Assembly: GCA_902801365.1 (NCBI GenBank)
Contig: CADCHY010000010.1
Location: 1 to 64,000, forward strand
Origin: an uncultured Succiniclasticum sp.
Lineage (GTDB): Bacteria; Bacillota; Negativicutes; Acidaminococcales; Acidaminococcaceae
Direction: 5' to 3'
Length of the DNA stretch: 64,000 nt
The notes under the pieces are model-generated. The model did not search any database. It saw nothing but the letters and a program-made list of their open reading frames with translations, and was not told the DNA's origin. Both the position numbers and the translations under genes were made by a program. Positions 581-46,305 of this stretch are shown piece after piece. Each line of letters starts with the position of its first letter. Within the stretch, counting starts at the first letter, position 1.

Positions 581-1606
581 TTACATGGATTTTTTGAATT
601 TTTCTTTGTTTTCGGAAACCCATTTTTCATTGAATTTCGGAGCGATTTTTATCTTGCTGGCAGGAGTCATATAGTCGGCCAGTTTGGCATTTTTCCGCAG
701 CGGACGGACTGTTAACGTGGTACCTACCAGGTTCTGGATTTTTTCGCTCAGCATATAGTCGACAAACTTTTTCGCGTTTTCGGGATGCTTGCAGTTTTTG
801 ATGATCTGTACAGACTGGGGAGCATACAAAGCGCCTTCTTTCGGGAATACAACTTCTACAGGGGCGCCGCTCTTAACCAGTGTCGCAGCAGGATCTTCCC
901 AGGTCAGGCCTACAATATATTCACCGCCTGCAACCCCTTTATACACCTGGCTGGAACTGTTCATCATCTTGCCGTTCAGCTGTTTCAGGAATTTATCGAC
1001 ATAATCCCAGGCATCTTTGCTGAAAGGATCGCCGTTGCCCATATCATACAGCATAACAACGAGAGACTGGAAAGCAGAAGAAGAGTTTACCGGGTCGCCG
1101 AAGGCGATTTTATCTTTCAGCGCCGGGTTCAGCAGATCGCCAAAGCCTTCAATCTTCATATCGCCTTTCATCTTCTTGTTTACGACCATGACTGTAGGAT
1201 CGGAGAATGCCGGTGTGAAGAATTTCGTACTGTTCCGGAACTCATCCATCATGTTCGGATCTTCTTTGGAAACGTATTCCATAAACAGATCTTTTTTGGA
1301 AGCCAGCATTGCTTCACTGCCGGCCCATAAAACGTCGCCCAGCGGATTCGCTTTTTCGGAGGCAACACGTTTTACCACTTCGCCGGTGCCCGCTACCACA
1401 ACATTAACTTTAATGCCGGTATCTTTTTCAAAGTTTTTGATAACCGCATTATTCAGGCTTTCGGAACGGGCGGTATATACAGTCAGTTCTTTTGCCGCGT
1501 TATCTGTTTTCGGACCTTCAGCTTTTTTGTCTCCGCCGCCGCAGCCGCTGAACAACATGGACAGGGACAATAATGCTGTTGCTAAAAATGCTACTGATTT
1601 TTTCAT
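581..1606 (-). CDS. ABC transporter solute-binding lipoprotein (family 1, Fe3+/phosphonate-like)
   Basis: This is a secreted, lipid-anchored binding protein that would deliver substrate to the adjacent ABC importer. Residues 1-21 form a lipoprotein signal with the lipobox LFSGC and acylated Cys22. The mature part begins after a short Gly/Lys-rich linker. Its opening ELTVYTARSESLNNAVIKNF is typical of the family 1 proteins that include iron(III)-binding FbpA/AfuA and 2-aminoethylphosphonate-binding proteins. The length of 341 residues is normal for the family. A good promoter lies upstream at 1679-1707, and GGGAGG precedes the ATG. The ATPase gene follows after a hairpin. Iron is my first guess for the substrate, but phosphonate or other anions are equally possible. 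Confidence 0.9.
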   Translation of the reverse strand: MKKSVAFLATALLSLSMLFSGCGGGDKKAEGPKTDNAAKELTVYTARSESLNNAVIKNFEKDTGIKVNVVVAGTGEVVKRVASEKANPLGDVLWAGSEAMLASKKDLFMEYVSKEDPNMMDEFRNSTKFFTPAFSDPTVMVVNKKMKGDMKIEGFGDLLNPALKDKIAFGDPVNSSSAFQSLVVMLYDMGNGDPFSKDAWDYVDKFLKQLNGKMMNSSSQVYKGVAGGEYIVGLTWEDPAATLVKSGAPVEVVFPKEGALYAPQSVQIIKNCKHPENAKKFVDYMLSEKIQNLVGTTLTVRPLRKNAKLADYMTPASKIKIAPKFNEKWVSENKEKFKKSM

Positions 1607-17379: not shown

Positions 17380-17510
17380 TCGTGGATTACGGTGCAGTTG
17401 ATCCGGGCAGGTTGCTGACTATAGACAGAAATTAAAAAACTGTTTGACAGCGACGGGATCGTGACGGAATTGCACCGTCTTGCCTTTTAAACAGACAGTT
17501 ACCCGGACTT
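17380..17510 (-). ncRNA. Cobalamin riboswitch
   Basis: Read on the minus strand, the core has GGTGCAATTCC followed by CCCGTCGCTGT, the standard aptamer spine. The B12 box AGTCAGCAACCTGCCCGG is at 17403-17420. P1 arms TCCGGG (17502-17507) and CCCGGA (17402-17407) pair. A terminal hairpin with GGAT/ATCC arms (17384-17404) exposes TGCACCG, which is complementary to CGGTGCA of L5, the expected kissing loop. The distal arms are short. A terminator follows, so ligand binding should stop transcription of the cobalamin genes. Confidence 0.92.
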
Positions 17511-17536
17511 ATTCATTTGTAACCGATTATTATTGA

Positions 17537-35270: not shown

Positions 35271-35459
35271 ATGGCACATATTTGTGAAGTATGCGGCAAG
35301 GGCATCATGTCCGGCAACAACGTAAGCCATTCCAACCGTCACACCAAAGCTGCCTGGAAGCCCAATGTACAGACTGTACGGGCTGTCGTAGACGGCGAAG
35401 TGAAACGCGTGAATGTCTGCACCCGTTGCCTGCGTTCCGGCAAAGTTACCCGCGCATAA
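35271..35459 (+). CDS. rpmB: 50S ribosomal protein L28
   Basis: L28 is a small protein of the large ribosomal subunit. The 62-residue sequence has ICEVCGKGIMSGNNVSHSN and a later CTRCLRSGKV. The two CxxC pairs suggest the zinc-binding form of the protein. A full AAGGAGG ribosome site precedes the ATG. The gene is monocistronic between its own promoter and a UUCG-loop terminator, and is divergent from recG. This is its normal size. Confidence 0.96.
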   Translation: MAHICEVCGKGIMSGNNVSHSNRHTKAAWKPNVQTVRAVVDGEVKRVNVCTRCLRSGKVTRA

Positions 35460-35475
35460 TCAGAAATGATACAAT

Positions 35476-35506
35476 AAGCTGTTCTCTTCGGAGAGCAGCT
35501 TTTTTG
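35476..35506 (+). terminator. Terminator of rpmB
   Basis: AAGCTGTTCTC and GAGAGCAGCTT enclose a stable TTCG tetraloop and are followed by six T residues. Confidence 0.93.
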
Positions 35507-35642
35507 TTTTCCCCTTTTTGTTTTGTGCATTTTGCCTTTCACTTTTTGTTTTGAAGTTTTTGCGTTTTCCCAGAGGCAAAAAAAACTTAACAAATACAAA
35601 AAACGGTTGTGTAATGAAATGCTTTAAAGACATAATAAACAA

Positions 35643-35816
35643 CTGCAGCCGGTAAGGCGTAAGCAAAACATCGCGAACGTTTGCGATATTTCATGAGGCG
35701 AAATTTGCCGTGGTGGCGAGACTGTCTGAGGGCGTAGCCCGAGTTTCGAAGCCACAGGCAAATAAGCCCATGAAATAGCAAACGCGAACGGTTTTGCAAC
35801 GCCTTACCGGCTGCAG
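35643..35816. repeat. 174-bp fold-back (imperfect inverted repeat) element
   Basis: The outer 18 bases (35643-35660, CTGCAGCCGGTAAGGCGT) and their exact complement (35799-35816) bound an imperfect inverted repeat that continues inward. TATTTCATG/CATGAAATA, ATTTGCC/GGCAAAT and a final GGGC-GTA-GCCC hairpin pair in order. It has no coding potential worth calling and no clear target duplication. It sits between the rpmB terminator and the zinc-ribbon gene. It could be a miniature mobile element or a palindromic repeat family. The rest of the 376-bp gap is T/A-rich with no visible gene. Confidence 0.75.
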
Positions 35817-35836
35817 TATTAATAGCATTTTTAAAG

Positions 35837-36310
35837 TTAGTCGTCACTCCGGAAAATAGAATCAAAAATACTCTTCTTCTCATCCGAATTGTCAATCACG
35901 TCTTCATTGAAGTTGAGACGCGTGCCGCATTCCGGACAGAACTTTGTATTGGCCCTTACCTTATGTCCGCAGCTGGTGCAACGGATGAATGCCTTCATCT
36001 CGATGAGGCGCTGCTCATACAGTTTGTAAAACGCGTCCACATCACTGTAATCCGGCTTCCACGTGTACACTTCGATATATTTTTTATGCTGGTCAAAGAA
36101 CAGCTGTACTGCGCCGTCCCCCATGTCCTGCAGGGTAACGTCAAAGAACTTTTTCCGTTTATGTCCGTGAACAACGTGATGTTCATCATCCCGTTCATCC
36201 ACATCAATGCCGATATCGTTCAGGCAGTCAAAAATCAGATCCCAGGCGTCCTGGAACGCAACTTCATAAATACGGATATCCTGGACTCCGCCAGCTCCCG
36301 GTATACGCAT
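35837..36310 (-). CDS. Small zinc-ribbon protein of unknown function
   Basis: The 157-residue protein is not recognised beyond its C-terminal zinc ribbon (CTSCGHKVRANTKFCPECG, about residues 110-129). The N-terminal 105 residues are a soluble alpha/beta-looking region with many acidic and aromatic residues, including DDEHHVVHGHKRKKFFDVTL. The tail is acidic. It follows the rny terminator on the same strand by about 50 bp. An ATG is used at 36310 with a GAAGGTGAG box upstream. No function can be given. Confidence 0.7.
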   Translation of the reverse strand: MRIPGAGGVQDIRIYEVAFQDAWDLIFDCLNDIGIDVDERDDEHHVVHGHKRKKFFDVTLQDMGDGAVQLFFDQHKKYIEVYTWKPDYSDVDAFYKLYEQRLIEMKAFIRCTSCGHKVRANTKFCPECGTRLNFNEDVIDNSDEKKSIFDSIFRSDD

Positions 36311-46123: not shown

Positions 46124-46143
46124 CAAGACAGTTCTCCCATACA

Positions 46144-46292
46144 AGTCTTTTCTCATCCAGACTATACTGTCGGTTCCGGAATCACACCGGATCGTGCGTC
46201 GGCGCGCAAGGCGCTGTCGGCTCGCGGACTGTACCGCCGGTTGGGAATTATGCGCCGGATTCGCCGGACACACTCACCCTGCCCCAAAGACT
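46144..46292 (-). ncRNA. FMN riboswitch (RFN element)
   Basis: On the minus strand the aptamer shows GGGGCAGGGTGA, CCCAACCGGCGGTACAGTCCGCGAGCC, GGTGTGATTCCGGAACCGACAGTATAGTC and GGATGAGAAAAGACT in the proper order. Outer arms AGTCTTT and AAAGACT close P1 (46286-46292 with 46144-46150). FMN binding should favour the following terminator and stop ribD-ribE-ribBA-ribH transcription. Confidence 0.96.
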
Positions 46293-46305
46293 GTTTTCGC
46301 TATAT

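Follow-up and report, generated by a model that had tools for sequence, protein, structure and literature searches.

Repeats of the REP/REPIN type are palindromes that carry a tag such as GTAG and have a RAYT transposase as partner. In ordinary bidirectional intrinsic terminators the loop is short and holds no repeated core. REPs are 20–40 bp long according to the available part of PMC3733652. As far as the available parts of two further papers go, template switching homogenises the arms of inverted repeats and inverts the spacer between them in a yeast lineage (PMC8604942), and it maintains RNA hairpins (PMC8794818). The fold-back element described here was found in a stretch of 64,000 nucleotides (the window) from an uncultured Succiniclasticum sp. 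whose genome, G000, is a 2.05 Mb draft assembly, 93% complete.

The element (35643–35816, no strand assigned) lies between the gene for ribosomal protein L28 on its left (35271–35459, plus strand) and a convergent gene for a zinc-ribbon protein (35837–36310, minus strand), the stop codon of which is about 20 nt from the element. It starts with CTGCAGCCGGTAAGGCGT and closes with the exact 18-base reverse complement. As RNA it folds into one hairpin of −103.9 kcal/mol (z −12.35) and as DNA the value is −62.5 (z −11.42); in both cases 0 of 200 shuffles did as well. Sequence and folds thus confirm the fold-back with exact 18-bp inverted ends and a GGGC-GTA-GCCC tip that the first-pass annotation had described. 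More specifically, a left outer arm (35643–35662, plus strand), which differs among copies and is here of the type GCAGCCGGTAAG.CG.AAGC, pairs with its complement, the right outer arm (35798–35816, plus strand). Comparison with copies from the same genome and genus delimits a conserved core between them (35663–35797, plus strand), here with GCAAAAC...GTTTTGC ends. Inside the core lies the tip motif ACTGTYTGAG-(tip)-CGAGTTTCG (35721–35748, plus strand), which served for the pattern scan of class genomes, with the tip hairpin GGGC-GTA-GCCC at 35730–35740 (plus strand), evident from sequence and fold. It is important to note that the exact 18-bp ends of the window element are not the conserved part of the family; the conserved part is the core at 35663–35797.

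The element was said to carry no gene and to sit in an intergenic gap after a terminator, and both points hold. No supported gene was found in it, and the terminator scan placed a separate intrinsic-terminator-like site 3' of the L28 gene (35476–35501, plus strand). The only ORF that crosses the hairpin in a list of ORFs of at least 80 aa is a 102-aa minus-strand ORF (35587–35895), which appears to be a fortuitous reading frame within the palindrome. At the element itself the terminator scan, limited to loops of 3–8, flagged no terminator, and the T tract of this copy is weak by eye. The window hairpin has no Rfam match at the gathering score and none at E ≤ 5. Elsewhere in the window, FMN and cobalamin riboswitches (46141–46295 and 17389–17521, both on the minus strand) score above the Rfam gathering score.

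A DNA search of G000 with the element gave 28 matches, i.e. 27 places (window included) and a self-inverse match, which rules out a single-copy curiosity and thereby the condition of one copy everywhere under which the first-pass annotation would have fallen. At least two of these places are partial: one ends at a contig end and the other, L027, has part of the core replaced. With a covariance model built on the core, the count for the same genome is 28. DNA search and covariance model alike detect the family in 11 of 14 genomes of the genus, with 28, 16, 8, 30, 19, 16, 34, 41, 52, 20 and 23 copies by the model, G003 (52) and G001 (41) being the copy-richest. Neither method finds a copy in G004, G009 and G010, which are more distant members of the genus, and with stricter filters (E ≤ 1e-4) the covariance model detects the family in none of the 49 genomes searched from elsewhere in the order. 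A pattern scan of named genomes returned 99 stretches from Succiniclasticum and from MAGs of rumen or gut origin that carry Acidaminococcaceae or Selenomonadales in the title; two of them (L207 and L283), both from the dairy-cattle MAG RGIG982, hold the tip motif without the core in the parts read. A phage or plasmid repeat was considered and rejected, the window element being without match in the plasmids and phages searched. The first-pass description of a miniature mobile or structural repeat stands in outline, as the element is multi-copy, seen in a single genus among 63 genomes of the order, and present or absent at individual sites. No report of the family or of the motif letters tried was found in the open literature searched. 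The sole paper in that literature that combines Succiniclasticum with 'inverted repeat' is, from its available part, a genome announcement of bioreactor MAGs.

For comparison of sequence and pairing, 102 copies were extracted. The core ends GCAAAA and TTTTGC, which form terminal inverted repeats, were recognised in 74 of them; 28 copies in which one of these ends was not found were flagged, and from the remainder 70 distinct copies with full 22-nt arms were aligned. The invariance of the core ends in the alignment is a selection effect because copies without recognised ends were flagged; in several of the flagged copies the ends are altered yet still match each other. Across the aligned copies the core measures 134–139 bases and the outer arms about 20 bp. 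RNAalifold predicts 53 pairs, 34 of them with two-sided change. In the arms, 87.4% of 840 cells (70 copies × 12 arm pairs) are paired, as compared to 59.2% after shuffling (sd 1.0) and 44–59% after sliding. Since pairing is far above the shuffled and slid controls, the arms are differing sequences in which pairing is kept. The arms covary the most; in the same test the covariation is 0.741 vs 0.211. Two-sided changes occur in 12 of 12 arm pairs, where shuffles average 10.1 and 24 of 500 reach 12. In the arms the difference between G–T cells (37) and A–C cells (24) is not significant (p = 0.12). The arm type of the window recurs at four different sites, namely the window and L002 (both G000), L118 (G008) and L109/L038 (one site, G003 and G007). 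One arm type at four sites, two of them in one genome, means that arms are able to travel with the core. A second hairpin type, with the base GTTGAG.GTTG...CAACGCGA.TTCGA and variable inner arms, takes the place of part of the core in L027 (G000, C20:6673-8730, positions 850–1060, reverse strand) and in L103. In L144 a full core is nested in the second hairpin type, which itself lies inside an apparent core remnant, so that this pattern is seen in three distinct cases among the loci examined.

To assign neighbouring genes in 120 longer loci, a crude criterion was used, the longest ORF. Among the 104 copies with both neighbours (18 further copies lack one), 41 lie in convergent, 51 in tandem and 12 in divergent gaps. 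The background, made up of the other gaps of 80 bp or more in these loci, divides into 39, 119 and 55 (213 deduplicated gaps; 215 before), which means that convergent gaps are enriched (p = 1e-4) and divergent gaps are depleted (p = 0.003). A stop codon faces the core in 92 copies at a median distance of 43 nt. As is expected of intrinsic terminators, the family thus forms stem-loops 3' of genes, with 12 of 104 copies looking divergent. A narrow first T-run measure was positive on 24 of 82 convergent sides (background 145/1248), with no excess in tandem copies (7/51 and 8/51 against the same background); the tandem signal is missing partly because the duplex takes in A/T tracts. With a wide measure (run of at least 4, 14–42 nt outside the core), for which the window was picked after the narrow result and which is therefore a second look and not an independent test, T-runs were found on 55 of 82 convergent sides and 5 of 24 divergent sides, as compared to 46 of 208 background windows. 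In tandem copies the wide measure is equal on both sides, 31/51 downstream and 31/51 upstream, which speaks against terminator action, as does the missing tandem excess by the narrow measure. Position, stem and T-runs suggest that the family hairpins are probably two-way intrinsic terminators behind genes. For the window copy, its weak T tract, the scan that left it unflagged and the terminator-like site that the L28 gene already has count against such a role.

On balance it is probable that we are dealing with a non-coding, multi-copy mobile fold-back family of Succiniclasticum, whose members are bidirectional terminator hairpins behind genes and change in place. The unit would be the conserved core of about 137 bases inside arms of about 20 bp, with an arm sequence that is variable but self-complementary. 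Judging from position, stem and T-runs, the unit placed behind a gene would work as a bidirectional intrinsic-terminator hairpin. Copy number, presence or absence at sites and the arm type common to several sites suggest that it spread as a non-autonomous mobile element. Inner deletions, observed between species, leave shorter hairpins and may lead to decay into plain terminators. With much the same arms around it, the core is observed both forward and reversed, e.g. at the L021 site, and template switching may flip it. Arm mutations may be copied to the opposite arm by replication template switching, or pairing may be kept by selection.

Comparison of orthologous sites in relatives, which the first-pass annotation had proposed, reveals the hairpin as either present or absent. 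At the L28 site, G005 and G012 share the outer arms with the window copy; in G005 the core between them is reversed, in G012 its middle part is deleted, and G003 has half an element. G008 carries an element with similar arms, as does G001 (L033, C19), where an extra fold-back insert of about 120 bases lies just before the tip. In G013, G002 and G011 the element is absent and other hairpins occupy the gap. Thirty-eight orthologous sites at 17 further loci were read by eye in G005, G012, G013 and G008; as the sites were largely picked for empty-looking spacing, the counts are not frequencies. The core is present at 13 sites, one of which (L103) carries the second hairpin type. Seven sites (L069, L071, L072, L074, L076, L086, L090) have an inner deletion with the core ends kept and a hairpin still formed, one (L075) has a half end, and five (L077, L078, L084, L088, L089; L084 uncertain) have arms without core ends. 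The hairpin is lacking at 12 sites, among them L066 with an unrelated plain terminator. Presence or absence at a single site can be read as gain or as loss. A search for target duplications was likewise proposed; by eye, the hairpin-free sites are too diverged for the junctions to be defined, and no duplication was defined.

Another possibility, which we consider unlikely, is that the core alone is mobile and enters the loops of existing terminators, so that the variable arms would be host terminators. The arms differ between loci, as would be expected, and different arms stand at the same gene end across species (L002, L004, L010). Moreover, the same arms are found without the core at two loci. 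At L021 the arms AGCGTGCAGGGA are little changed across much of the genus, and the core between them reads forward in G000, G005, G007 and G001 and in reverse in G003, whose counterpart in G011 has a part deleted, with no core at all in G013 and G006; in the core-free G004 and G009 the homologous gene has an unrelated long hairpin 3' of it. At L011 the arms stand without the core in G005, G012 and G007. However, such coreless forms may be deletions, as apparently at 7 of the 38 sites, and we therefore no longer take them to prove that the core inserted into the loops of terminators. The single arm type at four sites, two in the same genome, also speaks against a core that moves alone. Note that by eye an apparent tRNA-Ser and an SRP RNA lie, in G006, G003, G001 and G002 (L353–L356), near the gap of the L011 site that holds the element in G000.

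The matched arms deserve separate consideration. Thirty-six copy pairs share flanks by a short-flank criterion, and some of them may not be true orthologs. Many of these pairs have the same arms with few, mostly one-sided changes, which looks like fresh mutation. In other pairs the arms at a shared gene end differ for the most part, with 5–6 two-sided changes and one one-sided change (e.g. L002/L091, L004/L096, L010/L100), as if the arms had been replaced or a second element had arrived there. Intermediate pairs exist, e.g. L099/L145 and L156/L162, and two pairs with L138 have 9–10 one-sided changes that resemble misalignment. Since close orthologs have mostly one-sided arm changes, arm matching is not immediate. 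Template switching as published would fit both the matched arms and the flipped cores, with selection for pairing as the alternative.

Two-sided arm changes, together with sites common to several species, would also be expected if the hairpins were old, immobile and vertically inherited, with their similarity kept by gene conversion and template switching. We regard this as improbable given that G004, G009, G010 and the 49 other genomes of the order have no copy and that 12 of the 38 orthologous sites, picked non-randomly as they were, were read without hairpin. To the same degree doubtful is a structured non-coding RNA gene or a cis-regulatory RNA in many copies, as had been suggested for the window element. 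The fold is strong, the tip motif is conserved, and in the core G–T cells outnumber A–C cells (91 vs 24), which folding of one strand as RNA would lead one to expect; note that two columns supply 50 of the 91. Against such an RNA stand the lack of an Rfam match and an unbiased orientation, the core in tandem settings pointing along the genes in 30 copies and against them in 21 (p = 0.26). Moreover, no promoter-like site was found in 35440–35860, and the copies are mostly 3' of genes. Our results therefore do not support the RNA suggestion.

A REP/REPIN identity with a RAYT-type enzyme as the transposase, also put forward at first, is very improbable: the family is palindromic, intergenic and multi-copy, but the window element is far longer (174 bp) than REPs of 20–40 bp (PMC3733652, available part), its hairpin foot has by eye no GTAG-like tag, and Y1_Tnp is found in the copy-free G009 and not in the two copy-richest assemblies, G001 and G003, which contradicts the proposal unless the enzyme is missing from these assemblies. 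In general, candidate enzymes do not track the element among the 14 genus genomes: Y1_Tnp is found in 8, IS110 in 3 (2 over the cut-off) and RVT_1 in 3. A RAYT, IS110 or reverse-transcriptase partner was accordingly rejected, as the families do not co-occur with the copies. Of the 31 Y1_Tnp matches in G005 (S. ruminis DSM 9236), most are fragmentary and lie close to or at contig ends, which would fit a high-copy IS200/IS605-like element that interrupts the assembly. As to the proposal of a MITE, which is partly supported, the family is short, non-coding, multi-copy and dispersed and has terminal inverted repeats; these features agree, and a target duplication and a parent element were not found. 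More specifically, the matches in the 93% complete draft G000 are complete or partial elements by eye, with no end pair around a gene.

Beyond the genus, the tip motif was searched in the class Negativicutes and in collections of named genomes, plasmids and phages or viruses. ACTGTYTGAG-N(2-12)-CGAGTTTCG occurs in 19 of 380 class genomes, i.e. the 11 carriers of the family and 8 genomes from 7 other genera (G054, 13 copies; G097, 4; G049, 1; G101, 2; G102, 3; G296, 2; G308, 5; G330, 7). The reversed control pattern occurs in none of the 380. In seven of these eight genomes, folded at one locus each with G330 left out, the motif is at or near the tip of a long, otherwise different hairpin. Flanks resemble each other among the copies of G308, of G097 and of G330, elsewhere flanks differ between genera, and G054 has two flank types, one of them G097-like. 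The fold-back elements of the other genera (L309–L316, L322–L341) are longer, share the tip motif and are multi-copy in several genomes; some have a second strong hairpin after them, e.g. GGTTACTTTTGGGGC.ATGCCAAAAGTAA. Nine of ten proteins beside these elements match ordinary Pfam families (UvrC, isopropylmalate dehydrogenase family, biotin carboxylase etc.), none of these a transposase, and one matched nothing. A known Rfam RNA was rejected for ten other-genus tip-motif loci, where the only matches were ten below threshold: eight microRNA families, one V_AS7 and one IMES-5 (E 0.47). The V_AS7 match is on the dairy-cattle MAG contig (L207, 2092–2260, minus strand), away from the motif, with 60.3 bits against a gathering score of 90 (E 1.9e-9). 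The Sporomusa-type element has one plasmid match, in Sporomusa termitida, and no match among the phages searched. One viral contig has the motif letters, by eye not visibly within a long hairpin.

The shared tip, as a sequence pattern, hints at a common factor that recognises it. We put forward as a tentative idea, one that is much more likely wrong than right, that the tip hairpin is the recognition handle of a trans-acting system in several Negativicutes genera. Such a system would copy or place hairpins by structure, keeping the tip and tolerating any arms that pair, and would so seed gene ends with portable two-way terminators that are later worn into ordinary ones.

If the favoured reading of a mobile terminator family is true, it provides a natural series for the origin of new intrinsic terminators, in which a hairpin reaches a gene end as part of a repeat, then undergoes deletion or flipping of its core and finally persists as a plain terminator. 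The family would also be a test bed for the compensatory evolution of long stems, and it would point to a factor that may recognise a tip motif common to several Negativicutes genera.

In comparison with known systems, the family resembles MITEs, as described in the available part of PMC10969869, in being short, non-coding, intergenic, gene-free and multi-copy with inverted ends. It differs from them in that neither a target duplication nor a parent transposon was found, and in the long, copy-specific self-complementary arms and the placement behind genes. With the REP/REPIN and RAYT system (PMC3733652, available part) it shares intergenic palindromic repeats, whereas the window element has 174 bp as compared to 20–40 bp and no Y1 transposase co-occurs. 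The inverted repeats subject to template switching, so far as the available parts of PMC8604942 and PMC8794818 describe them, are similar in arm homogenisation, spacer inversion and hairpin upkeep; PMC8604942 concerns a yeast lineage, whereas in the Succiniclasticum family the process is one we infer. Bidirectional intrinsic terminators share with the family the stem, the T-runs on both sides as seen with the wide measure and the location at convergent gene ends, but in the Succiniclasticum element a conserved core of about 137 bases fills the loop.
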